Below the pieces are notes generated by a model. That model ran no database searches. It worked only from the letters and a program-made list of their open reading frames with translations, and was not told the origin of the DNA. Made by a program: the position numbers and the translations under genes. A stretch of 64,000 bases of DNA from Hysterangium stoloniferum (taxonomy: Eukaryota > Basidiomycota > Agaricomycetes > Hysterangiales > Hysterangiaceae). Below, piece by piece: positions 23,528 through 61,952 of this stretch (position 1 is the stretch's first letter; every line of letters starts with the position of its first letter). The stretch covers positions 868,001 through 932,000 of the forward strand of contig WHVD01000002.1 in the NCBI GenBank assembly GCA_015178975.1, written 5' to 3'.

Positions 23528-23596
23528 TAATGGCGTTACGTAAGCCATATTTGGTAAGCTGGAACATAGTACATTGTATAGTCCCCACTACGCGAG

Positions 23597-23943: not shown

Positions 23944-23993
23944 GTCCAAAGCTGTTAATCACAATTGACTGATCAAACCAACTGACCCGACAT

Positions 23994-24090: not shown

Positions 24091-24116
24091 CCCCGACCCA
24101 CCTGACTAAAACGAAC

Positions 24117-29090: not shown

Positions 29091-29607
29091 TAAAGAATGG
29101 GAAACACATTAGACGCTGAATATACAGCGGTGACATATTCCTAAATATGCAGCAGTGGAACATACATATCAAAGAGTAAGGTGTTTGGGTTCTGAGTGAT
29201 GTGTTGAAGGTGATGTAGGTTCCTTGTGGGCTCTTGGGTCCCTCAAACCAATTAGCACGTGCACCTGTGCACTCCCATGTGGATACTGCCTGACATGATG
29301 TTGGACTGAGATTTTACAGGTTTTTGAGGAAAGGCTAGCTACCGTTGTTAGAATCCCTGAGCTATTGTCATGCATACAAAATATTTTTCTTATCTTATGA
29401 ACCAGATGAGGAGATAAGCCAAAAAACAATTTATTGACACATAGCCACCAGATGCAAATAACGACAGCACGAGGACAATGATAGGCTCAACAAAAAACAA
29501 ACAACGTTAAGGATTACAAAAGTAAAGGGTGTTGGGTTTAAGGTGATAGTGTCTAGTAATCAAAGGACTCGACTCGCCCAATATCCTGAACGTTTAACCA
29601 TGAATGG
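29091..29607. repeat. Upstream flank of F-box unit 3
   Basis: Follows 20651-21200 block by block, with C-to-T type changes. It ends in AATGG, where a solo LTR (family E) was inserted; the same flank continues after it at 30007 (AATGGTTTACAATGTACATAC). Confidence 0.75.
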
Positions 29608-30109: not shown

Positions 30110-31296
30110 ATCACTACAAGGCTGTGACCTGTGGGGGGCAAGCCCCCACCATGCTACCACCCCACAACTTTACTTGGTCGCTTCATGACCTGGTGAATCA
30201 ATAATAATGTCTTAAAACACTACATCAGCATCTTATTTAGACACTTATTTTAAAGTGATTAAATTTTACATTATTTAGAATTATATACATTATATACATT
30301 TGTAAATTCACTGAACCTAAAAAACATAAGTCAATCTCCTTTTGGAACCTTGCTGAATACTTATTCATGGATCAATAATAACATTTTTAAACACTATGTA
30401 TTTGGCTTGGAATAGTATTTATATTCTTCCTCAGTTTGTTTCTCTTGAAGTGTCAGGTTTTTTATTCCACATTGGACTTCCAACTTCCCATATGGCTGTG
30501 ATTACCCTTCTACCCTTCCCCCATGTCATATTGGGGATTTCTGCAAATTCTATCTTCCCAATTATTCTTTTTCATATTCATACCCCACTTTCCTTCCATT
30601 CCACTCATCTGTCTGTCATTGAATCTTTTAGGATAAATTATTGTCTTGTATTCTACTAATCTCCAGTTCAAACATTGATTTAGAACCTTTCTGTTAAGAA
30701 CCACATTGTTCAGGCCCCTGGATTTTCAACCTACAGTACATATACTGTCCTCTGGCATTGTAATACCCAAGAACACATCACTTAATTATTTCCTTTTCCA
30801 GCCACTCTATCTCAGTTCTGTTCTAATGACATTCCATTATTCCTTGCATCACTTCACCATATCAGTTGCCACCTCAGAATATTTATCTTTTTTCTGTTGT
30901 CTTGCATTCCTTTTCTTAATGTCCTGTTCTGTTTCCCAATTTCCTTTGTTCTGCTAATATCAAATCTCCACTTTCAGCTCTGTGCTTCCATTCACTTTAG
31001 TATAAAACCCCATCATGTACACTACTATCTTTCAGTTTGAATATTGACTTAGAACACTCATTTAGAGCCCCCTCTCATGTTTGCTAAGTGCCATAATCCA
31101 TCCTGTAATATACTTTCTTGCTTGTTTCAAAGTATCAGAGCATCTGACAATTTTGTGTAAAGGCACAACACATGTTAAAGCCAAGCTCCACTTGTTTTTA
31201 GAAATGGAGTTGCTGGTTAAGTATACAATGACCTTTTGGTCTCCCATTTTCCCCTTTCCCATGTTGTCCCACTCTTAACACTTATATTTTGGTATA
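30110..31296. other. AT-rich spacer with decayed LTR traces
   Basis: No gene recognised. 30120-30190 (AAGGCTGTGACCTGTGGGGG) resembles short pieces near 38030 and 48330, so it is a dispersed repeat. Toward 31280 the order GTGTAAAGGCACAACACATG, AAAGCCAAGCTCC, then ACTCTTAACA mirrors the 3' part of LTR families A and D, which suggests an old diverged LTR ending at 31280. Confidence 0.45.
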
Positions 31297-32880
31297 CAGT
31301 GAGGGACAAAACCCTTTCAATGATTTTTAGTTGTGCAAACATTCTTGAATAACTCAAGAACTATTGTACATACAGACCTGAAATTTGGAGGTTGGTTAGG
31401 TCTATATGTTATCTATGTGCCCTTAAAATATTATGACATAAACATTAGTATTTCCCACGCTATAAATAAAACACTAATAAAATCACATTGGAAGGGTTTT
31501 GTCCCTGGTATAAAACAAATACAAATTAAACACTCTAGTACTTGGGATAGCCTCCCTTGGCCTTCAAAACAGCTTCAACCCTTCTAGGCATACTCTCTAT
31601 CAAGTTCTGACAAGTAGAGGCAGGGATCTTCTCCCACTTTGTCTGAACCCTCTCCCACAACTCATGAATACTCTTGGGTGCCACCCAGCCTCCTTTTGAG
31701 GTAATACCAGAGGTGTTCAATTGGATTAAGGTCAGCAGACTGAGGTGGCCATACCATGACCACAAATCCATTGTCTTTAACCAATTGGTGGCCTTTTTGC
31801 TCTTGTGTTTGGGGTCATTGTCTCACTGAAAGACCACATCTCCTGTGTTCTTGCCATAATACTCCATTATTTCTTGAATTTCATCCTCCATAATGCTAAC
31901 ATAAAGGTCAGCATCCATCCTTCCATCAATTTTGGTGGAATATCCTGGTCCTTCCCACAACATACAGCCTCACAACATCACATTTCCCCCTCCAAACCTG
32001 CTTGTACCCTCAGCCATCCTATCACTGAGCCCCTCTCCTGCCCTTTTCCACACCTACTTCCTCCCATCTGACTCCAAACAATTGATTTTTGTCTCATCTA
32101 ACCAAACAGCCCTCTTCCAATCATCCACAGTCCAGTCCTTGTGTGCCAGAGCAAAGTCCATCCTTGCCTTCCTATGCCTCTTTGTGAGTAAAGGCCTTGT
32201 CTCTCCACCACAGCCCTCATTCCAGCCTTCTTGAGTGCTCTATAAACAGTCTTCACTGAAATGGATCATATTTTGAAGGATTTTGGTCACCTCAGTGGCA
32301 TGTTCTGCCTTTCTGAGAAGTGATTTGTTAGAGGGAATAATGAATATCTGAGGGAGAAAGCTTGCATGGATGGCCACCAGGTGCTTTGGCAAGTGATGGG
32401 CAATGGATAAAGTGAATTCTGGATATAGTAAATAGGTCTCTGCCACTGATTTCAGAGATCTGAGAAGTAGACTTGCCCTCATTGAGCAAAATGAGAATGT
32501 GGCTAACCTGAGGAGGAGTAAGAGCTTTCATGGTGTAGAATGTTGAGTTGTGAGGACGTTATTGAACTAGAAAGTGAACAGCTATATATATATCTAATTT
32601 TGACAGGTCACATGATTAAACAAAACCTTATTTGCTGATAATCAATAAGGTTTTGTGTTAATCATATGACTGGGACAAAAACCTTCCAATGTGATTTTAT
32701 TATTATTTTATTTATAGCATGGGAAATACTAATGCTTATGTCATAATATTTTAAGGGCATATAGATAACATGTATACCTAACCAACCACCAAATTTCAGG
32801 TCTGTATCTACAGTGGTTCTTGAGTTATTCAAGAATGTTTGCACAACTAAAAATCATTGGAAGGGTTTTGTCCCTCACTG
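31297..32880 (-). mobile_element. Tc1-like DNA transposon 2
   Basis: 1584 bp between TA dinucleotides (31295-31296, 32881-32882), starting CAGTGAGGGACAAAACCC. Terminal repeats of about 215 bp; the inner end of each carries the tip motif inverted (CATTGGAAGGGTTTTGTCCC near 31487). A broken transposase fills the interior. Confidence 0.95.
31535..32531 (-). pseudogene. Tc1-type transposase of element 2, heavily broken
   Basis: N-terminus MKALTPPQVSHILILLNEGK (32531 downward) with a helix-turn-helix and the GGHPCKLSP linker; C-terminus MPRRVEAVLKAKGGYPKY at 31535. Between them the DNA still aligns with the DDE core (the SDETK region near 32090, the DNDPKH region near 31820), but frames change repeatedly. 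It is the most decayed of the four transposases. Confidence 0.88.
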
Positions 32881-32882
32881 TA

Positions 32883-33187
32883 ACCTTTTGTCATTCAGTT
32901 GTTTCATTCCATATTGCTCTTCTATTCCTTCCACATGAGTCTTTTTATATGGTCACATCACATTGATAGCTCCTGTATACTCTGGATCCCCATTTAGTTT
33001 GTATAGATATTCCATTGACCTCTTCCCCATTCCACTCACCTCTTTGATATTGAGTTTTTTAGTATAAATTATTGTTTTGTGAACTATGTATCTTCAGTGT
33101 GAATATTGACTTGTAGTTTCCTTTATTGCCCTTCAAGCTTGCATGGATTATCTTTTGGCTCCTGGAATATTATTTTGTATCACTATA
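32883..33187. other. AT-rich spacer between two Tc1-like elements
   Basis: 305 bases; pieces such as ATTCCACTCACCTCTTTGATATTGAG parallel 30595-30640, so it belongs to the same decayed repeat as the left spacer. No gene. Confidence 0.5.
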
Positions 33188-34787
33188 CAGTAGGCAACAA
33201 AACCCTTACAATGTTTTGTACTTTTTGAAAGACATGGCTATTCCTCCAGCAATAAATTCTGTAAAATGCTGAAAATATTATGTAAGATACTTCAACATCA
33301 CACCTTCCAGAAATGCACAGCCACAAGGCACCACATCCTTATTTGGTAAGTCCACATCACACACAAACCAATAGCTCATTGTAAGGGTTTTGTTGCACAC
33401 ATTTTTAAAGTTCAAAATGGGTCCTAGTCACATGACTTTGTTTATAAAGTTCAACAAAGTCATGTGACCACTCTTCCTCAATGTATATAAGATGAAACCA
33501 ACCAGTTGGAATCCTACAATTACCCTACTCACAATGAAAAAGCTCTCCTCCAGCCAAATCCAACATGTTCTTACTCTACTTGACTCTGGCATTTCTGGAG
33601 CTCAAATATGTTACCAAACTCATCTCAGCAGTACCACCATCAGTTGTATTCACTCTGAGCATTGCCCTGACCTCCCCAAATGCTCTGGTGGCCATCCTAC
33701 AAAGCTTACCACAGCCAATATTGCCTATGCTAGAAGAATAATTTGTATGGGGAAGGTTGATAATGCCACACAGGCAACCAAGAAACTTATAGACATCATC
33801 AACACTCCTATTACTTCACAAAAAGTGTGTTGCCACCTCAAAACCATAGGCATGAGGGCTGTGGTAAAGAAAAAAAGGCCACTTCTCAAACCTCATCATC
33901 GGAAATCTCAATTGGAGTTTGCAGAAAGGCATTTGGAATGGACCTGGAGGACTGGAAGAGGGTCATATGGTCTGATGAGACTAAGGTTAATAGGCTGAAA
34001 TCAGATAGAAGGAAATATGTGTGGAAAAATATGGGTGAGGGGTTAAATGATAGATTAGTAGAGGGAACAGTCAAGTTTGGAGGAGGAAACCTGATGATGT
34101 GGGGATGCGTGGGCTGGGATGGGTTGGGTTTGCAACCAAAATTGACGGGAGGATGGATGCTGAGCTTTATGTGGAGATCCTGGATAATGAACTCCAGCAA
34201 ACCCTCGAATATTACAACAAAACAGTGGCTGACATTGTGTTTCAATAAGACAATGACCCCAAACACACCAGCAAAAAGGCCCAGAAATGGTTCACTGACC
34301 ATGATGTTACAGTCCTCAAGTGGTCTGCACAATCTCCTGACATGAATCCTATTCAACATCTGTGGAATCATGTCAAAAAGAAGCTGGGAGAGTATGAACA
34401 GCCTGCAAATAGTGTTCATGAACTGTGGGAGAGGATGCAGAAGGTGTGGGAAGAGATTCTAAAGGAGGAGTGTCAGAAGCTTATTGAGAGTATGCCTAGA
34501 AGACTTGCAGTAGTGATTAGAGCAAAGGGGGGCCATACTAAATACTAATTTCTTGTAATAATAGTCTCAAAATAGTGTGCAACAAAACCCTTACAATGAG
34601 CTATTGGTTTGTGTGTGATGTGGACTTACCAAATAAGGACATGGTGCCTTGTGGCTGTGCATTTCTGGAAGGTATGATGTTGAAGTATAGTACATAATAT
34701 TTTCAGCAATTTTCAGAATTTATTTCTGGAGGAATAGCCATGTCTTTCAAAAAGTACAAAACATTGTAAGGGTTTTGTTGCCTACTG
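33188..34787 (+). mobile_element. Tc1-like DNA transposon 3
   Basis: 1600 bp between TA dinucleotides (33186-33187, 34788-34789), starting CAGTAGGCAACAAAACCC. Terminal repeats of about 220 bp whose inner ends repeat the tip exactly in inverted form (CATTGTAAGGGTTTTGTTGC near 33385 and its mate near 34575). It encodes one plus-strand transposase. Confidence 0.96.
33534..34548 (+). pseudogene. Tc1-type transposase of element 3, catalytic Glu replaced
   Basis: Start MKKLSSSQIQHVLTLLDSG at 33534, with a helix-turn-helix, GGHPTKL linker and AVVKKKRPLL, open to about 33998; then SDETKVNR, KFGGGNLMMWGC and the end MPRRLAVVIRAKGGHTKY at 34548. The region 33890-33960 changes frame, another frame change lies near 34140, and an in-frame stop sits just before the DNDPKHT motif (about 34247). 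The expected Glu of NPIEHLW is Gln (NPIQHLW, about 34350), so the DD34E triad is lost even apart from the stop. It is an inactive copy. Confidence 0.92.
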
Positions 34788-34869
34788 TATGTAGCTGCCA
34801 GTAACAAAGCAAAATATTATATTTTGGTCTCTACATATTTAATCCCAGTCTTTGAACTAAGGAAGCACT

Positions 34870-36560
34870 TGAACTTTTTATTTTTATTTATTGTATTTTA
34901 TTTTTATTTTTCCAATTTTCTTTTATTTTGAAGCATTTTACTTTCATTTACTGTATTTTATTTTGATTCAAACAGCAGTGGGAGCAGGATGGAGAGAGAG
35001 GGAAAGAGTACATGCACTTCCTGGAGGAAAGAGAAAGGAGCCTGATCAGAGCAGGATGGAGAGAGAAGGAACAGGTACATGCACTGCTGTCTGGAGGAAA
35101 GAGGAGGCCGATCAAAGCAGGATGAAGAGAGAAGGAAAGGGGACATGCACCTCTGGAGGAAAGAGAGAGGCTGAAGGGAGACGAAGGGGGACATGCACAC
35201 CCTGGAGGAGAGAGCAGGCTGATCAGAGGAGGAAGAAGAGAAAGGAAAGGGGACACGCACATCCTGGAGGACAGAGAGGAAGTCAATCAGAGGAGGATGA
35301 AGAGAAAGGAAAGGGGATATGCACATCCTGGAGGAAAGAGAGAGGAGACTGATCAGAAGGGGACAAAGAGGAGGAATGGGTACATGCACATCCTGGAGGA
35401 AAGAGGAGGTCAATCAAGGGGATGAAGAGTGGAGGAAAGTGTAACACACGACCTAGAGGAAAGAGAGAGGAAGCCAATCAGAGCAGGAAGGCCAATCAGA
35501 GCAGGATGGACAGAGCAGGAAATGGTACACACACCAACTGGAGGAAAGAGAAAGGAGGTTGATCAGAGACAAAGAGAGAAGGAAACGGTGCACACCAACT
35601 GGATGTTTTAAAAGGGAAACTGTTAGAACAGAAAGTTGCATTAGAAAGGAAAGTGTTCAGGGAAAGGAAAGTGTTCAGGGAATGGAAAGTGTTCAGGGAA
35701 TGGAAAGTGTTCAGGGAATGGAAAGTGTTCAGGGAATGGAAAGTGTTCAGGGAATGGAAAGTGTTATAAAGGAAACATTGTTACAAAGGAAACATTGTTA
35801 CAAAGGAAACACCCATTACAATGGAAGGAAACAATGGACACAAAGAAAACACTGGTTCCAAAGAAGATACCAGTGCCAAAGGAAGGATACAATGGTTACA
35901 AAAGAAATCAACAGTTACAAAGGAATCAATGGTTACAAAAGAAATCAATGGTTACAAAAGAAATCAACAGTTACAAAGGAAATCAACAGTTACAAAGGAA
36001 ATCAACAGTTACAAAAGGAATCAACGGTTACAAAGGAATCAATGGTCACAAAGAAATCAACAGGTACAAGAGAAATCAACAGTTACAAAAGAAATCAACG
36101 GTTACAAAAGAAATCAACGGTTACAAAGGAATCAAAGGTTACAAAGGAATCAATGGTTACAAAGAAATGAACGGTTACAAAGGAATCAAAGGTTACAAAG
36201 GAATCAACGGTTACAAAAGGAAAAATAGTTCCAAAGGGAACAATATACAAAAGATTGAAGGGTTACAAAAGGAAACATAGTCACAAATGGAACAAAGGTT
36301 ACTAAAGGAAGAACAGTTCCAATGGTTGAATTGACTGTCAACTGCAAGTAATTACTGTGGTCACCTGATTTATTTATTTTATTTCATTTTGATTTATTGT
36401 ATTTTATTTTGATTTATTGTATTTTATTTTGATTTACTGTATTTTGTTTTGATTTACTGTATTTTATTTTGATTTATTTTATTTTATTTTGATTTATTAT
36501 ATTGTTTTTTGGATTTATTGGATTTTATTTTCAATTCTTGCTTGTTCTCCTTGATGGATC
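34870..36560 (+). repeat. Compound minisatellite, array 1
   Basis: Four arrays follow one another: a degenerate unit of about 60-65 bp with GCAGGATG-AGAGA, GGACATGCAC and CTGGAGGAAAGAG (34975-35600); the 18-bp unit GTGTTCAGGGAATGGAAA (about 35655-35770, seven copies); a roughly 19-bp unit GTTACAAAGGAAATCAACA (35775-36290); then, after a unique block GGTTGAATTGACTGTCAACT, an AT-rich roughly 20-bp unit TGTATTTTATTTTGATTTAC (36365-36540). Long open frames here (up to 203 codons) are a by-product of the repeats and not genes. Confidence 0.93.
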
Positions 36561-39323: not shown

Positions 39324-39473
39324 GAAGCCCCCCAAACCCTCCCACCCCCACAACTCTTAAGTATTTCTGAGGCCCATTGTTTTAAAAGGGAAATTGTTAG
39401 AATGGAAAGTCATGTTAGAACAGAAAGTCGCATTAGAATGGAAAGTGTTCAGGGAACGGAAAGTGTTATAAAG

Positions 39474-40080
39474 TGTTACGACCCGTTCCCGGATGTTTCA
39501 ATATCCAACTTCTGATCTCCCACTCCCGACTTCCGATCTCCCACTCCCGACTTCCAATCCCTGACTTCCGACTTTCGACCTCCAACTACGGAACATCATA
39601 GTTACCGTATCATCCGCATTCTTCCCTTGTTCCGCATTTGGTAATTTGTCTGTTGACAAGTATTCACTCGTTTTGTTTGTTATATTCCCGTTACGGAATA
39701 TTGTCTTCCTAATATGTCTTATTGTATTTCCGTTTTAAGAACACTTCCGTTTCCGTCTTATTATGGTCTTAGTTTGTAGTACAATAATGAGCAGACTTAT
39801 ATTAGTTTCCACGAATTTGTACTTTACCTTAGATCTGATATCGACTTAGTTTCTTATTCCTTCTCCCGTCTTTCTGTACGCTCGATATTCGGAACTCTTC
39901 AGAACTCTGAATATCCGTATCTTCCATCATAAGTCTCACCTCTGAAATTAAGGACATTGAGCGTTTGCGTAGAGGCGCAGCACATAAGCTGAAGCCGACG
40001 TCCTGACCCTATCTAGTAGTTTCCGACTTCCGGTGACTTCCCGATAGTTCCGGAATAAGTTCCCGACACGGCACTTAACA
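39474..40080 (+). mobile_element. Solo LTR, family B, inside array 3
   Basis: TGTTACGACCCGTTCCCGG to ACGGCACTTAACA, with a perfect TAAAG duplication (39469-39473, 40081-40085). Slightly longer (607 bp) because a CTCCCGACTTCCGATC-type motif near the start is repeated. Confidence 0.95.
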
Positions 40081-40563
40081 TAAAGGAAAGTCACCTTAGA
40101 AAGGAAAGTCATGTTAGAAAGGAAAGTCACATTATAATGGAAAGTCACATTGGAACGGAAAGTCATGTTAGAATGGAAAGTCATGTTAGAATGGAAAGTC
40201 ACGTTAGAGTGGAAAATGTTCAGGGAACGGAAAGTGTTATAAAGGAAACAATTGTGACAAAGGAAACACCCATTACAAAGGAAACACCAATTACAAAGGA
40301 AACACCAATTACAAAGGAAACACCCTTTACAAAGGAAGGAAACACCCATTACAAAGAAAGGAAACAATGGTTACAAAGAAGATACCAGTTACAAAGGAAG
40401 GATACAGCAGTTACAAAAGAAATCAACAGTTACAAAAGAAATCAACGGTTACAAAAGAAATCAGTGGTTACAAAAGAAATCAACAGTTACAAAAGGAATC
40501 AATGGTTACCAAAGGAATCAAAGGTTACAAAGGAATCAACAGTTACAAAGGAATCAATGGTTA

Positions 40564-41267
40564 TGTTACGACCAGAAATCCTGCCAGACTCCAGGCAGTA
40601 ACTTATACGCACCAGCACCCTGTATGCACCAATTGTCAATTTACCGGAATGCCTCCATCCGTCAGACCTGTCCATGCTCAACCTCCATTACTTCATGTAT
40701 CAGTCACGGGAATACCTGCCGGACTCCACTCCTGACTATCTCTGACCCTGTCCCATGTACCAGTCACCAGACTTCTCTCAGAATACCTGTCAGCTCTCTA
40801 ACTGAGCCCTGTTCCCGTGGACTCCACTCCGCTCCATTCCGTTCCTAACACCAAATCTGGTGTTTACTTATCTCATTTTATGTTTGCTAGTTTCATTTTC
40901 ATTATTACTGGATTTGGTATGTTATTCATTCCACAGTCTATATAGTCTGGCAGATGTTGTACAGTCAGAAAATCAGCTTAGATTCTCCCCAGTAATCTCA
41001 GTCTATTTTCCTCTCTAATCTCCTCTTTGAAACACACCGCTCTTACTCATCAGAGCCCACGGGCTCTGACTCATCTATCTCTCGACCTCTGACTTGACCC
41101 TCGACCTCCGACATATCACCTACTCCCCGGACTCCCTGGGATTCCCATCTGCCTGTTTGAAATTGGACAAGATGATCTCACGAGGGCACAGCCTATAAGC
41201 TGAAGCCATGTCCTACCAGAACATCCACGGGTTCCCCAGAACCCTCCATTAAGCTCCATTCTTAACA
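40564..41267 (+). mobile_element. Solo LTR, family A, inside array 3
   Basis: TGTTACGACCAGAAATCC to CCATTCTTAACA, flanked by GTTA on both sides (40560-40563, 41268-41271). It has the TATA box CTATATAGTC and then CAGTCAGAAAATC about 34 bases on, the proposed RNA start of this family. Confidence 0.92.
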
Positions 41268-41600
41268 GTTACAAAGGAAACAACAGTTACAAAGGAGACA
41301 ATGGTTACAAAGGAGACAACAGTTACAAAAGGAAACAACAGTTACAAAAGAAAGAACAGTTCCAATGGTTGAATTGACTGTCAACTGCAAGTAATTACTG
41401 TGCTCATCTGATTTATTTATTTTGATTTAATGTATTTTTGATTTACTGTTCCTCGTTGCTACGCTCATCACTCGCGAGATGGGTATCGGGTGATCCTTCG
41501 CGAAGTTGGACGATGCTTTTCGAGAGCGGACTGCGGCTTGGTTGGCCCTTGCGGATTTACGGGCTGAAGTGAGAACGGGAGCGGCTGGGGGATACGCCGG

Positions 41601-49239: not shown

Positions 49240-51480
49240 ATGCCACCAAGAAGAAAAGCGCACGTACAAGAATCATTACTTGGACCATCGACTCTTCATT
49301 GCCCACTTACTTTGTATACCAGCCAGACACTCACAAACCAGCCAGACACCATGGAAGAGGCCCATATCGAAGAAGTCCTGGAAAACCCAGATGAATCCAA
49401 GCACAAGGAGAAGTCTGTGGCCCCCGACAAGGGCAAAGGTGTTGAAAATTCCCCATCTAATGATTGACGGCCACTTTCAGATCCCACTTCTGAGTATTTA
49501 GCAATCACCTTAGAAATATTGATGAATCACATGCTCAGAGAGGGTAAAAAGAAGGATCCGGAACCTCCACGGTCAAAAGTCAATGCTCCAGAACCCTTCA
49601 TGGGTTCCAACCCCAACAAAATTTCCACTTTCCTCATGCAATGTCACTTCCATTTCCGCAATCAATCTGCCACATTCTCCACAGACTCCCGAAAAGTCAA
49701 TTATGCACTCTCATACCTCTCGGGATCCATGTTGAAATGGTTTGAACTGGCTTTTAGCAGACTTTCCGAGGAAGAGCCACTCTGGCTTGAAGACTGGACG
49801 TGTTTGTTGAAGAGCTAGAAACCAACTTTGGCCTGTATGACCCTACCGGAGAAGCCGAGAATAGTCTCACCAATCTTCATATGAAGGACACCCAGCGCAT
49901 CATGGACTACATTGTCCAGTTCAACAATCTTGCAGCTTGTTGTCAGTGGGGCAATCCCGCTCTCTGCAACCAGTTCTATGCTGGTCTGCCATCCCACCTT
50001 AAAGATGAAGTCTCAAAAGGAGAAGATGGCAAGCCAAAAACATTGTTCTGTATGCACCTCAAGGCTCAAAATGTGGATGCATGCTATTGGGAACATCATG
50101 TGGACGTTGCCTGCGAGACCTCCATGGACAAGGTCAACAAGTCCACAGCTAATAAAACCAACAACAACACTCCATCCACTAGCAACCAAAATTCCATGCA
50201 ATCTGACAAGAAGAACAATAAAAAGTCTTCTAACAACAACAACAACAACAACAACAACAAAGGTCAACAGTCTGGCAAGCAAACTGGAAAACCCGACCTC
50301 ACAGGCAAGCTCAGACCCAATGACAAACTGACCCCACAAGAAAGACAATGTTGTATGGACAATAACCTTTGTCTCTTGTGTGGAAAACCCAGTCATCGAG
50401 TTCCAGAATGTCCATTGGCGAAGCAAACTATACAAAAGGTCAAACAGCCAAAGCCTCCTCCATGGAAACTCCATTGAAGGACAAACCGGCTTCTGACTCG
50501 AAAAAAGAGTAAGCAATCCCATGGACTCTGCAAAAAGCTGACCGGCTTCTGGCCCACAGAGAGTACGACTTAAAAATCGACCTTGAAGAAGGCACCCAGC
50601 CACCCCTTGGACATATCTACCCACTTTCCTCCACGGAACTTTCCACAATCCCCGATTTCCTGGATGAACATTTGTCCATAGGTTTTATCAGACCCTCTAA
50701 ATCTCCTTTTGGAGCACCTGTTCTGTTTGTCAAGAAAAAAGATGGATCCCTTAGACTATGTGTTGATTTCAGAGGACTCAACACTGTCACAAAAAAGGAT
50801 AAGTATCCACTCCCACTTATACCTGATCTGCTCCATGCTCCATGGAATTCTCGGATTTACACCAAAATAGACCTTAAACATGCCTACCATTTGGTCCGGA
50901 TCTCCATGGGAGACGAGTGGAAAACCACTTTCAGAACCCGTTATGGGGCCTTTGAGTGGTTGGTGATGCCCTTCAGGCTCACCAATGCTCTGTCTGTTTT
51001 TCAGCATTTTATTAATGATATTTTCTCTGACATGCTCGATGTATGCATCATTGTTTACTTGGATGACATTCTTATCTACTCCGAGGACCCTGTGGAACAT
51101 GACAAACAAGTCCATGAAGTTCTCTGGAGACTCAGACAACATGGTTTATTCATGAATGGTAAAAAATGTACTTTTGACATGGACTCTGTGGCATGGATGA
51201 AATGAAAGTACAAGTCATTAAAGATTGGGCAGAACCCAGAAAAGTCAAAGATATACAATTTTTCCTCAGCTTTGCCAATTTTTACAGAGGGTTTATCTGT
51301 GGATATTCCGAAATCATGGTCCCCCTTACTCGTCTTACTTGCAAGGGCACTCCATAGAATTTTAACGATAAGTGTCAAAAACCTTTCAATCTTTTGAAAG
51401 ATTCTTTTTCTTCAGCTCCAATTTTTTTGCATTGGAAACCGGACTTTCCGCTCATTGTTGAGATGGATGCCTCAGACTAC
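49240..51480 (+). mobile_element. Ty3/gypsy gag-pol fossil, family A (partial)
   Basis: In order: gag N-terminus (MPPRRKAHVQESLL), the gag core (NAPEPFMGSNPNKISTFLMQ, DSRKVNYALSYL), an Asn-rich linker, a zinc knuckle (CLLCGKPSHRVPEC, about 50375), reverse transcriptase ([19 protein letters not shown] ... [10 protein letters not shown]) and the start of RNase H. It stops near 51480, where AT-rich foreign sequence begins; no integrase or 3' LTR follows. Broken in several places. Its protein is close to the family B element, so A and B are sister chromovirus-like lineages. Confidence 0.93.
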
Positions 51481-51900: not shown

Positions 51901-52078
51901 TGTTAGGATATGTACAGGGTGGGTCTCCAGAGAAACCTGTGGGATATCGGGCAGGACTTGGCTTCAGCTTATAGGCTGCGCCCTCACTAGATCGTGTTGT
52001 CCAATTTCAGATGGGCAGATGGGAATACCGGGGAGTCCGGGCAGGGGTCGTGGGTCGAGGGGTCATAGGTCAGAGGTC

Positions 52079-52664
52079 TGTTAAGTGCCGTGTCGGGAAC
52101 TTATTCCGGAACTATCGGGAAGTCACCGGAAGTCGGAAACTACTAGATGGGGTCAGGACGTCGGCTTCAGCTTATGTGCTGCGCCTCTACGCAAACGCTC
52201 AATGTCCTTAATTTCAGAGGTGAGACTTATGATGGAAGATACGGATATTCAGAGTTCTGAAGAGTTCCGAATATCGAGCGTACAGAAAGACGGGAGAAGG
52301 AATAAGAAACTAAGTCGATATCAGATCTAAGGTAAAGTACAAATTCGTGGAAACTAATATAAGTCTGCTCATTATTGTACTACAAACTAAGACCATAATA
52401 AGACGGAAACGGAAGTGTTCTTAAAACGGAAATACAATAAGACATATTAGGAAGACAATATTCCGTAACGGGAATATAACAAACAAAACGAGTGAATACT
52501 TGTCAACAGACAAATTACCAAATGCGGAACAAGGGAAGAATGCGGATGATACGGTAACTATGATGTTCCGTAGTCGGAGGTCAAAAGTCGGAAGTCGGGG
52601 ATCGGAAGTCAGGAGTGGGAGATCGGAAGTCGGATATTGAAACATCTGGGAATGGGTCATAACA
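52079..52664 (-). mobile_element. 3' LTR of the family B element
   Basis: 586 bp, TGTTAAGTGCCGTG to GGTCATAACA on the plus strand. The adjacent plus-strand GTACCCCCC corresponds to the polypurine tract next to a 3' LTR. Confidence 0.95.
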
Positions 52665-52844
52665 GTACCCCCCTGTTAGGCCGAAATCCCATAGAGGCGA
52701 TTAGGTACTAAGTGTTTGAAGCGACAGCTGATTGTTATGTGTCGTGAAATTTACGCAAATATGGAGGTGAGAGTTTCGGCTGTTATTCTGAGTATAAAAA
52801 CCTCCAAATATTCGAATTAATGTTTTTGTTTCTTCAACCACAAC

Positions 52845-53984
52845 TTGTATGTCGATTCGTTGTTCATCACTACCCCGGAAAACTCAGATACCGAAATATC
52901 CATACTTCAAAAGATGTCGAAGGTTGCAGAACTTCAACAAAAATGCCAGAAAATGGAGGAGTTGAAGCGACGACAGGAGGAGGAGGAAAGAGCGTTGATG
53001 CAGGAGTTGAAAGATGTGGAAGAGGCGGAAAAACGGGAATTGGAGCGGGCGAAGGCGGAAAAAGAAGCGTGGATACGGAAAATGGTGGAGGCGCAGAAAA
53101 AGAAAGAAGAGGTGGAAAGATTACAGCGGGAGTTGGAGGTGGCGGAAAAACTGAAGGAGATAAGGGAAGGAAAGGTAAGTTTGACCCATACATTCCGTGA
53201 TTCCAACCGATAACTATTGATGCAGCGAAAAGCCGTGGAGGTGGAAGTAGAGGGAAAAGCTGGACCTTTGAGTCCTAAAGTAAGTGCATCTGTAAAGGAA
53301 ACGGTAGTTGTTTAACTTCCGAAACAGAAACCAAAGGTCAAAGCTCCGGAACGAATGGAAGTTGTCCACGAAACTCCGTGTTATCGATGTTCCATACGGA
53401 ACATGACTTGTTGGAAGCAGAAGGTAAAATGGGGTGTAACTTGCTATCCCTGCGCGGTTCTCAAACTTCCGTGCACCCTTGCCTCAAAAAGGGTTCCAAA
53501 AGGTGAGAAGACTCCGAAAACTAACGACGTGGGAATTTCAGGAGTGGCCAAAGCTACGGAAACTGAAGCGTCGAAAACGGATAGTACGGGCATTGAGCTT
53601 CTCAAGGAAACCGTCGACGCATTGGTTTTTATCGGGACAGAAGTCATGAAAATGCGGGATACAATGGATCACCATAATGATATCCAGGAGAAAGGTTTCC
53701 GTTCGTTGATCCGGAATTTCCGGAGGCAAAACAATTTCCTGGAGAAGATAATGGTTAGCATTGGTGTAATCACAGTATCCGAGGGGTTTTCCGATAAGGC
53801 ACGGGAAAAACCTAATGATTCGTTGGTGGAATGTGTTGAAAAGAGGTGGGCATCGGGAAAAGGGCCGGAAGAATCAGAGAGTGAGGATGAAGAGGTGCAG
53901 GATATGGGGGAAAGTGCGGAAATTGCTGAAGAGCCAGAAGTTGGGATGGAAGGTGGATTTGGGGTGTCAGAGACTTTGAGATAG
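52845..53984 (+). CDS. Accessory ORF, antisense to gag-pol: coiled coil plus Cys-rich protein
   Basis: Three plus-strand open segments lie between pol and the 3' LTR. The first (ATG likely at 52914, MSKVAELQQKCQKMEELKRR) is a continuous Glu/Lys/Arg heptad coiled coil of about 80 residues. Two short intervals with GTAAGT donors and CAG acceptors (53175-53225, 51 nt; 53280-53327, 48 nt) separate the segments and look like spliceosomal introns. The last segment holds CYRCSIRNMTC then CYPCAVLKLPC, a six-Cys cluster loosely like a Zn2Cys6 finger, a helical middle and an acidic tail (EESESEDEEVQDMGE). It belongs to no standard retrotransposon part. It may be a captured host gene or a lineage-specific accessory protein. 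Function unknown. Confidence 0.7.
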
Positions 53985-54071
53985 ATTTAATAATATTTTT
54001 TTTGACTTGCAAAACCTAAAGTGAGTGTGAACATGGAAGTGTCGGAAACTGAACAGAAAAGAACAGAAAGA

Positions 54072-57000
54072 TTAGAATGATGATAAAGGTCCGGGTTTGC
54101 CTGGATAAGCCGTGTGGAAGTCAGTAACAATTTCCATAGCGTGTCCAAGTTCCGTGGCCAATATCCATGAAGTTTCCTCGTCAGTACCTTCATAACCTGC
54201 CCATTTGACTAAATAGAGCAGTTTACATGTACATCGGCGATTGTCGATTTTAGAATCCAAAATTTCGGAAACTTCGAATTCAGGTTCTCCATCAATGATG
54301 ACCGGAGGGGACGGAGGTTGAGTACGTCCCGGGAATGAGTTAGGAACACAAGGTTCTAACATGGAAACGTGGAAAATGGGGTGGACTGCTCGCATACTGT
54401 CGGGAAGACGGAGAGTCCATGAAAGTGAACTGGCTTGTGCTATAATTTCGAAAGGGCCTAAAACTTTCTCAGCGAGTTTTTTAGAAGGTCGGGTAGTACG
54501 GAAGAATTGAGCTTTTACAAAAACCTGATCACCAATTTTAAAATTAGGAGGTGGGATCCTGTTTTTGTCCATGGAACATTGATAATATTCCTGTGCGGAA
54601 GAAATTGCTTTCCGAAGTTCTTGATGTAATTCGTCGAGGTCAGTAATAAATTCTTGAGCACGGACAGAAGCCAAATCTCGTTCGGAATGTACTGTGAGAT
54701 TCGGATTATAGCCTTTATTGGCGAAGAAGGGAGATATGCTGGTGGTTGCATTCAGAGAGTTATTGTAGGCGAATTCTGCGATCGGAAGAAGGGATTTCCA
54801 GTTGTCCTGTTGATAATTACAATAGATGCGGAGATATTGTTCCAGTGTTTGATTAACATGTTCCATTTGTCCATCACCTTCCGGGTGATATCCCGAGGTG
54901 AAGTGTAGTTTCATGTCGAGGGCTTTTCCGAGGGCCTGGAAGAAATGGGAGACGAACTTGGAGCCTCGATCGGAAGTTATGTGAGATGGAACTCCGTGTT
55001 TGGAAAATACGTGAATAATGAAAAGTTCCGCTAATTGTAAGGATGTGATTGTATCATGAGTGGGTATGAAAATGCCTTGTTTCGAGAATCGGTCCACAAC
55101 AACTAGAATGGATGTAAAGCCTTCAGATGTCGGAAGTTGTTCGATGAAATCCATGGAAATTGAATTCCAGGGTTTTTCCGGTATCGGGAGTTGCTTGAGA
55201 AGGCCGTATGGCTTATGCCTCTGGGTCTTAGAGCGTAAGCAGGTGGTGCATGACTTAGAGAACTGAGTTACGAAATCTCAGAGGTTGGGCCAAGTATATT
55301 CTCTACGGATTAAACCAAGAGTATTGTTGATGCCGTAATGTCCGGAGATTGGATGATCGTGTTTATACTGAAGTACGCAGAGTCGGAGATTGTTGGAATC
55401 TGGAACGTAGATACGTCCATCGAGACGGATAAAACCTTGAGAGTCTTGTGACCATCGGGGTTGGTCGGGATTGTCGGGAACTTCTAAATGTGGCTTGAGG
55501 GCTGGGTCGGAAGTGAGTGCGGAAAGGATATCTTGATGTAATTGCTCAATGTCCATAATCATGATGCTATGCATAATTGGATAGGAAAGGGAAGTTGCTT
55601 GGATAGATGCGGAAAGTTGTTGCGTTGTAAAAACCGGTTTCAAGTTATGCAGATTAACAACAGCGTAGTTACTTTCCCCTCGTTAGGATAGACATCCCAT
55701 CGTCGAGTCATGGCATCTGGTTTTCCACCAAGACGTCCAGGTTGGAAATGGATAATCATGTTGAAAGCAGAAAGGAATTCAGACCAACGGGCCTGCTGGC
55801 GGGTTAAAAGTTTAGTGGTAGAAAAATATTTGAGATTTTTGTGATCGGTAACAACGTCAACGGGAGTTGTGGAACCTTCGAGATAATGGCGCCAATGTTT
55901 GAAAGCTTCGAAAATTGCCAAAAGTTCCTTATCATGAACGTCGTAATTGAGTTCGGATACTGAAAGTGTCCGAGAAAGAAATGCAACCGGATGAATTTCA
56001 CCGTCGGAATCTTGAATGGAAAGAATTGCGGCAATTGTATAATCGGAAGCATCAGTTTCCACAATGATCGGAACATCAGGTTTCCAATGGGAAAGAATCG
56101 GGGCAGAAGTGAAAGCATTTTTTAAAGTCTGGAAGGTGGAGCGGCATTTGTCGTCAAAAACCCATGGTTGAGTTTTACGGGTAAGACGAGTGAGCGGTAC
56201 TGTAATATCCGAGTAGTTCCGAATAAAACGATGGTAAAAGTTGGTGAAACCTAAAAATGATTGAATGTCCTTGACCTTCCGTGGTTCGGGCCAGTCACGG
56301 ACAACTTGAACCTTGGTTTCATCCATATGGAGACCATCAGGGTCGATGATGAAACCTAAGTATTCAATAGAATCCATGTCGAAAGACCGTTTTTACGGAG
56401 TCTTCAGAAAACTTCACGGACCTATTCATCGTGAAGAGTGGGATCCTCGGAAAATACCAAAATGTCATCCAAATAGACTATAACACATACGTCAAGCATG
56501 TCGGAAAATATATCATTAACAAAACATTGAAAAGCGGAAGGGGCGTTGGTAAGGCCGAACGGCATAACCAACCATTCAAAGGATCCATAGCGAGTCCGAA
56601 AAGCAGTTTTCCATTCGTCGCCCTCGGCAATTCGGACCAAATGATAGGCGTGTTTGAGATCTATTTTGGTGTAAATCCGAGCTTTCCGTGGGGCATCGAG
56701 TAAATCGGTAACGAGTGGCAGTGGATACTTATCTTTCCGTGTGATGGAATTTAATCCTCTGAAATCGACGCAGAGTCGAAGAGAGCCATCCTTCTTTCGG
56801 ACGAAGAGGACGGGTGCTCCATACGGAGACTTTGAGGGATGGATAAAACCTATCGACAAATGTTCATCCAGGAACTCCCGAATAGACAAAAGTTCTGATT
56901 GGGATAATGGGTAAATAGGTCCTAACGGAGGGTTTGAACCGGGCTCAATATCGATTTTTAAGTTGTAGGGCCCATGTGGTGCAAGCCTGTCAGCTTTTTG

Positions 57001-57657
57001 CTTACTGAAAATGTCCGCGAAATCATGGTATTTTTCGGGAACTCCTTCCAGGTCGACTTTTAGCTCAGATAATTCTGGAGTCGCAAAACGACCAGATGCT
57101 TCATCAACTTTTAAGCTGATCAAAAAACATTGCGAACCATCCAGTTTACTCACCCTAACAAATGCCGAAGCATTGATGAGAGAGATTTTTGGAGGCTCGG
57201 AAGTTTCAGTAGAAGCTGGAGGTGCCGTTGATGCCGAAAAGGCGTTGGCCGGACAAGACGCTGCAGGAGGAATGAAAGTGTCGGGAATTTGGAAAGTAAT
57301 ACTGCCCAATACCCAGTCAATCAATGGATTATATCCGGTGAGCCAGTTGTATCCAAGAACTACCGAACAGCTAGAGTCCAACTGTGTTACGAAAGAAGTA
57401 ACCGTCTGGGATGTTCCACAAGGAAACTGGATAGACATGTCACAGGCTTGAGTAATTGCCATATTGCTAGTGCCGTCAAACAAACGTAAGGAAATTGCGG
57501 GAACAGAATGGAGTTTCAGATTATGTTTCGTGGCAAAGGTGGTATCTACAAAACAGTGTGTGGAGCCAGAATCTATTAGAGCTTGGAACACTAAATTTCC
57601 AAGAAAGTCAGAGACGAGTTTTACAAATAATGAATCGGGATTAGAGAGAGCGGACAC
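54072..57657 (-). mobile_element. Pol region of family B: protease, RT, RNase H, integrase, chromodomain
   Basis: From 57657 downward: aspartic protease (FQALIDSGSTHCFVD), reverse transcriptase ([17 protein letters not shown] ... [13 protein letters not shown]), RNase H (IVETDASDYTIAAILS; 56.1 kb), integrase zinc region (HDHPISGHYGINNTLGLIRR; 55.3 kb), integrase core (DFIEQLPTSEGFTSILVVVD; 55.15 kb) and a chromodomain (YLVKWAGYEGTDEETSWI; 54.2 kb). Chromodomains of this clade are known to target insertion to heterochromatin. Confidence 0.96.
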
Positions 57658-57731
57658 GTTGAGACGGATAACCTCGGATACACGGAGAGAGTCAACGCAA
57701 CCCTCTGACCGTGCAGATTCCGGAGGGTTGC

Positions 57732-58963
57732 TTACTCTTTTTTCGACTCCATGGTGGGTTTTTCCTTAGACGTTGTAGTTGTAGTGGAAGTTGCCGCGCG
57801 AGCCTTGGAAGAGCTAGATTTAACAGTACAGTCGGAAACCTTGTGTCCGCCTTTCCCCCAGAAAAGGCAGAGATCGTTGTCCATACACCGTTGTTTCTCC
57901 TTCGGGGTGAGTTTACCGTCGGTACCCAACAAATGGGAAATGTCAGGTTTGTCAGAAGTTGACTGTTTTTCCTTGTTGGATTTCTTGTCTTTCTTCCGGT
58001 CGGAATTTGATTTGCCAGTATTAGTGCCAGAGCCGGTGTTATTGCCTGAGTTGTTGCCGGAAGACTTGCTAGTCGACGCCTTGTTGTTCTGAGAATGTTC
58101 CGTCAGGTTCTCTCGAGAAACCTCGGCTTTTCGTTCCCAATAACGGGCATCGGATGTTTGAGCTTTAATCCACATGAGTTGGAGAGTTTTAGGCTTCCCA
58201 TCTTTGCAGATTTCGTCTTTACAGTAAGGCATGATGGAAGTCCCATATAGAAATGGTGCCTGAGGGCGGAATCGTCCCATCCACATCGTGCGGCGAGGGT
58301 ATTGAACTTGACGAGATAATCGGAAACTCGTTGATTGTCCTTCATCTTGAGCGTCATTAGTTCATTTTCTGCTTCGCCGGATTGATCGTAAGGTCCAAAA
58401 TTAGTTTCCAGTTCTTCCATGAAAGCATCCCAGTCATCGAGCCATACAGGTGTCTCGTCAGATATTCCGGATAGTCCGGGTTCGAACCAATCCTGAGCGG
58501 TATCCTTGAGATATGAGAGCGCAAAATTGACTTTTCGACTGTCGGATTGAAAAGCATTGGGTCGATCACGGAAACTGAAATGGCATTGGAGAAGGAAATT
58601 CTTCAATTTTTTCGGATCCTTGCTGGTAAATGGCTCGGGTTCTTCGACTCCGGTGCGGGATGATTCTTTACTATCCTCAGCGGATTTCAAATAGTCAGCG
58701 AATTTCACAATGGAGTTGATAAACAACATTTCAGTCGGTTCGTCGGAAGATTTCTTTTTCGATGTCTCCGGCTGATCTTCTGCTTCGTTGTCGGAAGTGT
58801 GGGGAATATTGGAATCCTTTGTTACCTCGGTAACCTCCTCGGTAACTTCTTCGACTGAAGCTGATGTTGTCGGCTGAATTGGGGTTTCAGGTTGAGTGGT
58901 GTAAAGTTGCAACGGGGATTGAAGTTGGGATGGTCCTTCGGCAGCTTTGCGTTTGGGACCCAT
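57732..58963 (-). mobile_element. Gag region of family B
   Basis: Starts MGPKRKAAEGPSQLQSP at 58963. Thr/Glu-rich N-terminus, gag core (NFLLQCHFSFRDRPNAF, SDSRKVNFALSYLKDTA), a Ser/Thr/Asn/Lys-rich linker and a zinc-knuckle region near 57860. It aligns with gag of the family A element at 49.5-50.5 kb. Confidence 0.93.
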
Positions 58964-58984
58964 GATGAGCGAGTCGCAGAGTTG

Positions 58985-58995
58985 AGATCTGATAT
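58985..58995 (-). promoter_or_regulatory. Proposed self-primer binding site, family B
   Basis: On the sense strand ATATCAGATCT begins two bases after the 5' LTR. The complementary 11-mer AGATCTGATAT occurs once in the sense LTR (59247-59237), about 27-33 bases beyond a TATATTAG box (59280-59274). An 11-base pairing between the RNA 5' end and the site just behind the LTR is exactly the Tf1 self-priming layout. Confidence 0.7.
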
Positions 58996-58997
58996 AC

Positions 58998-59583
58998 TGT
59001 TAAGTGCCGTGTCGGGAACTTATTCTGGAACTATCGGGAAGTCACCGGAAGTCGGAAACTACTAGATAGGGTCAGGATGTCAGCTTCAGCTTATGTGCTG
59101 CACCTCTACGCAAACGCTCAATGTCCTTAATTTCGGAGGTGAGACTTATGATGGAAGATACGGATATTCAGAGTTCCGAAGAGTTCCGAATATCGAGCGT
59201 ACAGAAAGATGGGAGAAGGAATAAGAAACTAAGTCGATATCAGATCTAAGGTAAAGTACAAATTCGTGGAAACTAATATAAGTCTGCTCGTTATTGTACT
59301 ACAAACTAAGACCATAATAAGACGGAAACGGAAGTGTTCTTAAAACGGAAATACAATAAGACATATTAGGAAGACAATATTCCGTAATGGGAATATAACA
59401 AACAAAACGAGTGAATACTTGTCAACAGACAAATTACCAAATGTGGAACAAGGGAAGAATGCGGATGATACGGTAACTATGATGTTCCGTAGTCGGAGGT
59501 CGAAAGTCGGAAGTCGGGGATCGGAAGTCGGGAGTGGGAGATCGGAAGTCAGATATTGAAACATCCGGGAACGGGTCGTAACA
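58998..59583 (-). mobile_element. 5' LTR of the family B element
   Basis: 586 bp; partner of 52079-52664. It holds the TATA-like TATATTAG and the proposed RNA start. Confidence 0.95.
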
Positions 59584-60152
59584 AGGTCGTGGGTCGTGAG
59601 TCGAGATTGGTGAGAGATAGATGCGCCGGAGCCTGTGGGCTCCGACTAGTGTGAGTGGTGTAATTCAAGTAGGAGTTTAGAGTGGAAAATGTATTAGATT
59701 ACTGGGGGGAATCTAAGCTGATTTTCTGACTGGATTGTATGTACAACATCTGCCAGTTTAAATAGACCATGGAGTGAATGTCATACTGAATCCAGTAATA
59801 ATGAAACGGAACGAGCAAAACATAAGACAGGAATAGTAAACACCAAATTGGTGTTAGGAATGGGACGGAACGGAGCGGAGTCCGAATAGTGACAAATCAT
59901 AAACCATAATGGGAAATGGAGCAGGAGCGGAGTCCAAATTGTGACAGGTCATTTGACTAAAATGGGAATGGGGCTCTGTTAGAGAGGTAATGTGTTTTAC
60001 TGAGCAGGGTCCTGTGACTGACGTGCAGATGAGGTCGGACATAGACAGAACAGATTCCGGTGGGTTTTCTGGTGACTGAAACACAATGTAACGAAGATGA
60101 ACGTAGATGAGTCTGATGGACGGAGTCCGGTGGGAATTCTGGTAAACTGATA

Positions 60153-60284
60153 ACGGGTGCGTATAGGGTGTGGGTGCATATAGGGTGTGGGTGCATATAG
60201 GGTGTGGGTGTGTATAGGGTGCAGGTGCATATAGGGTGTGGGTGCATATAGGGCATGGGTGCATATAGGGCACGGGTGCATATA
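60153..60284 (+). repeat. 17-bp minisatellite GGGTGCATATAGGGTGT
   Basis: About eight units in the family A LTR. Other family A copies have only one to three CACCCTATAC-type units at this place (40600, 48390), so the array expanded in this copy. Tc1-like element 4 jumped into a TA of its last unit. Confidence 0.92.
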
Positions 60285-61905
60285 CAGTGACCTCAAAAGC
60301 CCTTTCCATGTTGACCCCAAATGCAGTGTTTGAAGAACACCGCCTTACAGCATGGGAATTACACTTAGCTTTGGTGGAGTCATACATAGTACATCCTCTT
60401 GGCTACAATATTGCTCCCTGGGTCACGTGATTCCAATCACAGGGTGTAGAGATATGATTAATTTAAAACAGCAATACCATGGAAAAGGTTTTTGCACTTT
60501 TGAACTGATGACTAGGATCTCAGTCAAATCATAGAATAATGGCTATTATTTGTTGGTACAAATAGATATATACATGTAAATAGTATGTCTGAGTTTAAAA
60601 AAGTTCTCACACTTCCACACTTCTTGATTCCTAACCACCATCATGGTCAGATCCCTCTCTCTTACTCAACAAAATACCATCCTCTCCTTACTTGATTCTG
60701 GCCACTCTGGTGAAGCTATTGCCAAGAGAACTGGTGTTGGCCCATCTGCCATATCCAAACTTCACTCCAAACATTGTTCTCCCCTTCCCAAAGCTGTTGG
60801 GGGTTGTCCCTCAAAGCTTTCTCCTACAAATATTCAACATACTCAGCATCCCATCACCTCTGGCAAAGCTGAAAATGCTGTCCAAGTGACCAAAGCCCTT
60901 ACCAACATTATCAACCATCCCCTCTCTGCTAGTACAGTTTGCCTCCACTTGAAGAAAGCTGGTATGAAGGCTGTGGTCAAGTCAAAACGCCCCCTTCTTC
61001 CACTAGGCATTGCAAAGCTCGCTTGGACTTTGCCTATGCTCACAAGGATTGGACTATGGAGGACTGAAATAAGGTTATATGGTCTGATGAAACCAAAATC
61101 AATCGCCAAGGGTCAGATGGACATAAATGGGCATGGAAAAGGGCAGGTGAAGGCCTGAATGATAGGCTGGTAGAGGGAACTCTGAAGTTTGGAGGAGGTT
61201 CTCTTATGATGTGGGGTTGTATGACTTGGGAGGGAGTTGGCTTTGCTAGCAAGATTGATGATAGGATGGATGGGAGACCTCTATCTTCAAATTTTGAAGG
61301 ATGAGCTCCAGCAAACCCTGGAGTATTATGGTCTCAATCCTTCTAACATCATCTTTCAGCAAGATAATGACCCTAAGCATACCTGCAGGCTGGTCAAGAA
61401 CTGGCTAAAAGACCAAGAATTCAGGACTATGGTTTGGCCTGCACAGTCCCCAGACCTGAATCCTATTGAAGATCTCTGGGATTGTCTCAAGAGAAGGCTT
61501 GCAGAGTATGAAAACCCCCCCAATGGAATTCATGAATTGTGGGAAAGGATTCAAGTGGAGTGGGATAGAATACCAGTTGAGGAGTGTCAGAAATTGATTG
61601 AAAGCATGCCTAGAAGGGTTCAGGCAGTGCTTAAAGCAAAAGGTGGTTATACCAAGTACTGATAATATGTAAATACCCTGTTCAGTTCAAAAGTGCAAAA
61701 ACCCTTTCCATGGTATTGCTGTTTTAAATTAATCATATCTCTATACCCCGTGATCAGAATCACGTGACCCAGGGAGCAATATTGTAGCCAAGAGGATGTA
61801 CTATGTATGACTCCACTAAAGCTAAGCGTAATTCCCACGCTGTAAGACGGTGTTCTTCAAACACTGCATTTGGGGTCAACATGGAAAGGGTTTTTGAGGT
61901 CACTG
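60285..61905 (+). mobile_element. Tc1-like DNA transposon 4, inside LTR A
   Basis: 1621 bp between TA dinucleotides (60283-60284, 61906-61907), starting CAGTGACCTCAAAAGCCC. Terminal repeats of about 230 bp, their inner ends carrying the tip motif inverted (CATGGAAAAGGTTTTTGCAC near 60480; its mate near 61700). Confidence 0.96.
60643..61662 (+). pseudogene. DD34E Tc1-type transposase of element 4, few breaks
   Basis: Start MVRSLSLTQQNTILSLLDSG at 60643, helix-turn-helix with GVGPSAISKLHSKHC, GGCPSKLSP linker, SASTVCLHLKKAGMKAVVKSKRPLL. The catalytic part 61237-61662 keeps IIFQQDNDPKHT and SPDLNPIEDLW with 34 residues between Asp and Glu, and the end MPRRVQAVLKAKGGYTKY. Frame changes near 61005 and near 61250 (plus a TGA near 61066) separate the parts. 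It is the best preserved of the four and keeps the DNA-level D, D and E codons. Confidence 0.92.
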
Positions 61906-61952
61906 TAAGTTAGTGCCCGGAGTCTGGCGGGATTTCTGGTCGTAACAAACCC

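Follow-up and report, generated by a model that had tools for sequence, protein, structure and literature searches.

A Ty3 retrotransposon of Hysterangium stoloniferum carries, between its pol region and its 3′ LTR, an open reading frame on the opposite strand. Two questions arise from this locus. Is the frame a gene that belongs to the element, and what could such a gene do for the family that carries it? The locus lies in a stretch of 64,000 nucleotides, hereafter the window, to which all coordinates refer unless stated otherwise. An earlier sequence-only reading of the window had proposed an antisense, intron-bearing accessory gene of the element family. Linkage to the element, splice sites, reading frame and dN/dS bear this proposal out.

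Results

The host element

The element is a Ty3/Gypsy chromodomain retrotransposon on the reverse strand (Table 1). Trimming of the single outer aligned base at its borders gave TG..CA ends. The last pol ORF encodes an integrase core (rve, E 1.3e-10, Pfam), followed by a chromodomain, the order seen in Ty3 chromoviruses. The chromodomain match is barely over its cut-off (Chromo, 25.2 bits versus 25.1). The element had been described as young and near-complete. The description fits the LTRs, which agree at 570 of 587 aligned positions, and the GACCT duplications on both sides, but not the pol region, which in this copy is broken across several frames.

Several other repeats were observed in the window. 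Four structures of about 1.6 kb (10197-11789, 31295-32882, 33185-34790 and 60283-61907) have inverted end repeats of 214-231 nt that are 91-96% complementary, and are possibly a family of non-autonomous DNA transposons. A near-perfect palindrome is located at 2835-3535 (331-nt arms, 96%, 39-nt spacer). Degenerate minisatellite-like arrays of 18-19 bp occur in several places (35600-36310, 39395-41350), and duplicated segments are found in 17034-29210, many of them at a spacing of about 1.5, 3.0 or 4.3-4.8 kb.

Table 1 Coordinates of the Ty3 element and of its antisense gene in the window
Feature	Position	Strand	Basis or remark
Ty3/Gypsy chromodomain element	52079..59583	-	LTR alignment and flanks; Pfam domains
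Target-site duplications GACCT	52074-52078 and 59584-59588		Both element flanks
3′ LTR	52079..52664	-	LTR alignment
5′ LTR	58998..59583	-	LTR alignment
Last pol ORF	54072..55277	-	Integrase core, Tf2-1-like SH3, chromodomain (Pfam)
Antisense accessory gene, three exons, 323 aa	52914..53984	+	Spliced translation, copy alignment, dN/dS
Leader, 3′ LTR to antisense ATG	52665..52913	+	Purine-rich run of the element next to the LTR
Exon 1, 87 codons, charged, coiled-coil-like	52914..53174	+	Composition
Intron 1, 51 nt, GT-AG, phase 0	53175..53225	+	GTAAGT...CAG
Exon 2, 54 nt	53226..53279	+	Length kept in 58/59 copies
Intron 2, 48 nt, GT-AG, phase 0	53280..53327	+	GTAAGT...CAG
Exon 3: six-Cys cluster, linker, second helix-like region, acidic tail, stop	53328..53984	+	
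Cluster C-x2-C-x6-C-x10-C-x2-C-x6-C, residues 123-154	53379..53474	+	Kept in 29/29 intact copies
Acidic C-terminal tail, residues 284-323, net charge -14	53862..53981	+	Composition
Hypervariable block, introns included	53050..53900	+	60-bp-bin divergence, window copy versus 12 class-2 copies

Layout of the antisense gene and its protein

The gene sits tail to tail with pol, between the end of the last pol ORF and the 3′ LTR. The LTR alignment and the pol end thus confirm the position proposed earlier. The same position, antisense to gag-pol in the interval from pol to the 3′ LTR, characterizes the antisense ORFs known as aORF-3R. The spliced frame runs from the ATG at 52914 to the stop at 53984 and encodes 323 residues with zero internal stops. 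The start had been placed at 52845; the ATG at 52914 is more likely, as it is aligned in 23 of the 25 rows of the copy alignment. The leader upstream of this ATG is presumed to be the 5′ UTR of the antisense transcript.

The two short introns, the six-Cys cluster and the acidic tail of the sequence-only reading were all recovered (Table 1). Its long coiled coil is coil-like by composition: residues 1-87 include 49 charged residues, one glycine and zero proline, and the N-terminus therefore looks like a coiled coil. A basic, NLS-like stretch (PKKPKVKA) spans exon 2 and the beginning of exon 3, and the run KK-x-KVKA is present in 28 of the 29 intact copies. We read the basic run as a putative NLS and the six-Cys cluster as a putative zinc cluster.

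The fungal Zn2Cys6 binuclear cluster has the consensus C-x2-C-x6-C-x(5-12)-C-x2-C-x(6-8)-C. Profile searches of the Cys-rich part gave a divided answer. The six cysteines fit the spacing of one such cluster in all 29 intact copies, but PF00172 (Zn_clus), the sole Pfam match of the window exon 3, remained at 8.7-8.9 bits, well under the gathering cut-off of 21. Any match at all to PF00172 was obtained for 3 of the 5 family members scanned, each below threshold, and three exon 3 sequences of a sister family (see below) gave 10.1 bits, 7.6 bits and no match. Fungal Zn2Cys6 transcription factors also carry a middle domain, to which the antisense gene has no Pfam match. No match was found in a scan of viral contigs with the exon-3 alignment, and a profile search of the PDB returned a designed helical repeat (E 3.3) as its sole match. 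A structure predicted from one sequence had a mean pLDDT of 40.6 and gave no information on the fold.

The spliced frame is conserved and under purifying selection

Copies were searched in the 111-Mb genome from which the window derives. The best 40 copies at the DNA level are 87-100% identical, and the best 150 places of a protein search with exon 3 are 71-100% identical; the copies studied, drawn from these best matches, are skewed towards better-preserved ones. Ten loci that were short, deleted or truncated were dropped and duplicates were removed, giving an alignable set of 59 copies.

Both introns are GT-AG in 55 of the 59 copies. Relative to the window copy, divergence is 0-1.8% at the four splice dinucleotides, versus 14% and 22.5% in the intron interiors. 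The lengths of all three exons are divisible by 3 in 48 copies, and 30 copies read through without a stop. Of the exon length changes, multiples of three make up 26 of 33 in exon 1, the single one in exon 2 and 19 of 25 in exon 3. The introns keep to threes less often: 27 of 41 changes in intron 1, in which related copies repeatedly show a +3 form, and 2 of 11 in intron 2. The six cysteines are retained in 47 of the 48 in-frame copies, and random decay without conserved cysteines was not seen among them.

The 29 uninterrupted copies (a 30th, L029, cut by a contig end, was excluded) give a dN/dS of 0.29 in the frame, with 0.22 for the Cys region; the in-frame estimate may be slightly depressed by this choice of copies. 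As controls, the two other forward frames have values of 1.17 and 1.12; for the three reverse frames, the values are 0.93, 0.35 and 1.42. The low reverse value is explained by third positions facing third positions in that frame. In 14 copies with both parts, dN/dS is 0.285 for the antisense gene (dS 0.151) and 0.240 for the integrase-chromodomain part (dS 0.066), three of the 14 integrase copies containing one or two stops. Hence, the antisense gene, present in most copies of the family, is conserved to a degree similar to pol. Overall, the spliced frame is conserved and under purifying selection.

Clean intron loss was found in none of the 59 copies, two of which (L036 and L075) have larger deletions that reach into an intron. 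Such retention is what one would expect of splice sites that are not presented by the sense genomic RNA, and it agrees with the earlier proposal that introns in antisense orientation survive retrotransposition.

Decay of a particular type is visible in the copies. Among the premature stops of in-frame copies, 19 of 22 are TGA at positions where the commonest codon elsewhere is CGN. Such CG to TG decay, seen for example in L043, L047, L048, L050 and L052, fits DNA methylation or a RIP-like process.

The gene travels with the element

Other copies of the family carry the antisense gene, as had been asked of them. The gene or a remnant of it lies beside 98 integrase places, that is, all those examined among 103 listed. 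An opposite-strand gene is found 87-164 bp from the integrase at 75 of the 103 places. From the remaining 28 places, 20 were fetched, and all 20 carry the gene in complete, truncated or internally deleted form. Two further linked places came from the DNA copy search and one, at a distance of 785 bp, from the protein search. On the side of the gene, 75 of the best 150 places are without a partner among the 103 listed integrase places.

Five copies (L059, L061, L065, L066 and L069) have clean internal deletions of the antisense gene. The alignments that flank the breakpoints overlap by 5-29 nt, as from template slippage. Three of the five junctions were searched genome-wide (best 40 places per search). 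Each has one full-identity match, and one of them matches another of the five deletions at 82%. The existence of amplified derivatives lacking the gene was therefore rejected for the three junctions searched. The absence of visible multiplication of these deleted forms hints, if weakly, that the gene matters for spread.

A sister family shares the gene and its introns

A fragment of a sister Ty3 family adjoins the element at 49468-51411 (+) and includes an RT fragment at 50513-51205. Relatives of this RT fragment have an open frame of exactly 1304 codons at 17 of the best 150 places. The integrase of six fetched sister copies is 81-83% identical to that of the window element.

These sister elements carry, at the same place, an antisense gene of the same plan. 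It has a charged N-terminus and, after GK, a first phase-0 intron; the next exon is 57 nt long and begins with RK, and a second phase-0 intron follows it, after SPQK in 5 of the 6 copies. The C-terminal part has the cluster C-x2-C-x6-C-x9-C-x2-C-x6-C and then an acidic tail. Both introns are present in 6 of 6 copies and the protein is unbroken in 4 of 6; all four unbroken proteins show the Zn2Cys6-type spacing with x9 in the middle. Although the window protein and that of sister copy L079 are 33% identical over 255 aligned columns, the intron positions are identical between the two genes. Unless the gene later passed between the two families, the introns are thus older than the family split. 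The sister gene has a dN/dS of 0.22 (4 copies). An identical sister exon 3 occurs at 19 or more places, query included, which implies recent movement or duplication; the sister family looks recently active.

The antisense gene is the hyperdivergent part of the element

A crude identity threshold divides the antisense genes into classes, with 10 pure class-1 and 4 pure class-2 copies among the 29 intact ones. Twelve copies of class 2 (L085-L096) were compared with the window copy; they were picked for a diverged antisense gene and a close integrase, and the contrast describes these copies rather than a random sample. Their divergence from the window copy is 3-11% in the LTR, 2-9% in the leader, 1-6% in the integrase, 5-12% in the spacer between the two stops and 12-24% in the gene. 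Within the hypervariable block, mean divergence is 9-32% per 60-bp bin. Outside the block, divergence peaks at 18%, in the AT-rich spacer with its alignment gaps. The gene itself is not divergent throughout: roughly its first 45 codons and the last part of the tail remain close to the window copy. Four class-1 copies differ from the window copy by 0-10% all along, and the leader stays within 2-9% across the 20 copies compared.

In gag-pol, seven elements (five of class 2, one of class 1 and one mosaic) diverge by 1-10% per 200-bp bin. Exceptions are a single bin of L102 (13-14%), those bins in which an alignment ends, and L098 past 59020, where the match stops. Hence, among the parts compared, the antisense gene is the only hyperdivergent part of the element. 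This allele-like variability, which could not be noticed from the window alone, is its most unusual property.

Synonymous divergence follows the same pattern. Over the gene, dS is 0.47 between classes, versus 0.08 and 0.06 within them. By part, the between-class value is 0.13 for codons 1-45 and 0.24-1.17 beyond codon 45. The between-class dN/dS is 0.31 and exceeds 1 solely in a short linker, residues 159-190 (1.25). With values above 1 confined to this linker, adaptive residue change is not established.

Mosaic forms were identified. In L018 and L030, exon 1 resembles class 2 and exon 3 is of class 1, and L033 and L037 revert close to the end of the gene. Class 2 occupies at least 23 full-length places at 93-100% identity, after which identity drops to 82%; such a group followed by a gap suggests that class 2 is one recent acquisition.

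The sister family behaves alike. Between L083 and three other copies (L079, L081 and L082), dS is 0.56-0.61 in the gene and 0.13-0.18 in the integrase. Relative to L079, L083 and L084 diverge by 11-30% in the gene, but less in the integrase (3-7%), the leader (2-6%) and the following 400 bp (1-8%); the spacer reaches 12-15%, and a value of 15% is found in the final bin (4101-4300 of L079). L083 and L084 are close in the 5′ half of exon 1 (7%) and 17-28% apart in exon 3. Deep alleles and mosaics are thus present in the antisense gene of both families and are not found in the adjoining integrase, gag and pol/RT having been checked in the first family.

Divergence of the LTR together with the class of the antisense gene, expected for an LTR-binding repressor that changes its specificity, was not clearly seen. 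The third of the LTR beside the leader reaches 10-11% in 5 of the 12 class-2 copies.

Discussion

Relation to known antisense genes

The sequence-only reading had called the gene an undescribed system. This was too strong, since antisense ORFs at the pol-3′ LTR site are known in plants and in Botrytis Boty. In plants, aORF-3R are described between pol and the 3′ LTR of the Ty3 elements Grande, RIRE2, Retand/TRP28 and PvRetro13 (PMC7264820, PMC11963269). The window gene has this position in common with them but has no match to TRP28 PF04195 among Pfam results up to E 10, the exons being scanned separately. It also differs by its two conserved introns, the word "intron" being absent from the main text of the two papers, and by its Zn2Cys6-type spacing and allele-like hypervariability. 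One fungal antisense case is brtn of Botrytis Boty, reported in 2011 (Virology 417:248, as cited in PMC8365987, PMC4227169 and PMC7264820), and the likeness to it is one of description. No report of a basidiomycete antisense retrotransposon gene appeared among the top literature matches, a set with most subscription papers outside its scope. New relative to the known antisense ORFs is that this one is spliced, has Zn2Cys6-like spacing and is hypervariable.

Further parallels concern possible roles. HBZ of HTLV-1 is described as a spliced antisense nuclear regulator expressed from the 3′ LTR (PMC10186651). The likeness, antisense, spliced and near the 3′ LTR, is read from the DNA alone for the window gene. 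HBZ is a bZIP protein whereas the antisense gene has no Pfam match to bZIP, and homology is not claimed. In the copy number control of Ty1/Ty1′, as outlined in PMC7055915, exchange of a divergent element-encoded module by recombination sets the restricted subfamily. The module is gag in that case; here it would be a separate antisense gene, and restriction is putative. Finally, the VANC proteins of Arabidopsis VANDAL transposons are presented as element-encoded, sequence-specific anti-silencing proteins (PMC5735166, PMC10398659). With these, the window gene may share the idea of counter-silencing; homology is not claimed.

A possible regulator of its own family, and its rivals

We lean, with slightly less than even confidence, towards a resident antisense gene of Ty3 chromoviruses that most likely regulates its own family and whose exchanged block sets recognition. 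The coil, the basic run, the Cys cluster and the acidic tail suggest an oligomeric protein of the nucleus, in contact with nucleic acid or chromatin, and the reading as a nuclear regulator leans in addition on the analogy with HBZ. We infer antisense expression because the splice sites are conserved and the gene lies beside the 3′ LTR. An antisense promoter in or beside this LTR would drive the mRNA. The protein would reach the nucleus via its basic stretch and oligomerise via its coil; the six-Cys cluster may contact DNA or chromatin, and the acidic tail may recruit or mask partners. The protein would then control transcription or copy number of its own family, either through self-repression or as an activator that counters silencing, while the exchanged block would determine which relatives or host factors are recognised.

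On what is recognised, the LTRs give an indication. They do not clearly follow the classes, which argues against an LTR-binding repressor with allele-dependent DNA specificity and makes a protein partner, such as other copies of the antisense protein or a host factor, more likely than LTR sequence. A new allele, acquired by template switching, could escape the old control and spread. Such escape and spread would explain why gag-pol is uniform while the antisense gene falls into allele classes and mosaics. Phages have exchangeable immunity regions, and by analogy the middle part of the gene might be an exchangeable self/non-self or escape module, whose recombined alleles free the element and drive its spread. 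This more specific proposal we consider doubtful.

A serious rival to the regulator, compatible with a function of the gene, is that chance recombination with diverged lineages was followed by amplification and that the diversity is unselected. We regard this as a real possibility, while leaning against it. Introns diverge together with exons, pointing to the exchange of whole blocks, and the apparently single recent acquisition of class 2 is what such a history would leave. However, the deep block coincides with the antisense gene in two families, sparing the adjoining integrase in both and gag and pol in the first, and there is more than one mosaic form.

One form of regulator, an anti-silencing factor that counters chromatin or RNA silencing by the host and whose variable block tracks a host factor or motif, appears rather unlikely. 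The protein is element-encoded and nuclear-looking, the two families differ far more in this gene than in the integrase (33% versus 81-83% identity), and the TGA stops at CGN positions fit methylated, silenced DNA. Yet positive selection at the residue level is not seen save in the short linker, and the comparison with VANC rests on VANDALs, which are DNA transposons. Less probable still is a partner for integration targeting or tethering that acts with the integrase chromodomain: the gene adjoins the integrase-chromodomain end, and coil and Cys modules would suit protein or chromatin binding, but neither the integrase nor the chromodomain varies by allele class.

The captured host gene that had also been suggested, carried as recent cargo, is very improbable. 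It would account for the introns and for the fungal-type Cys spacing. Two diverged Ty3 families nevertheless share the gene at the same place with the same intron positions, and no host homologue was seen among the best 150 places, 75 of which are paired with an integrase; recent capture was rejected as unlikely on these best matches. A chance antisense ORF in purine-rich DNA, to which the purine-rich exon 1 and the one low reverse frame might have pointed, can practically be dismissed given the conserved splice sites and frame, the sister-family homologue and a dN/dS well below the 0.93-1.42 of the four other control frames.

Surveys have listed antisense accessory genes of retrotransposons, giving their function as unknown (PMC7264820, PMC11963269). 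In the present case, the conserved introns make antisense expression directly testable with ordinary strand-specific RNA data, and the allele classes, set on an otherwise uniform element, offer a natural comparison for finding the recognised target. If the diversity is selected, retrotransposons would maintain a recombining specificity locus of their own.
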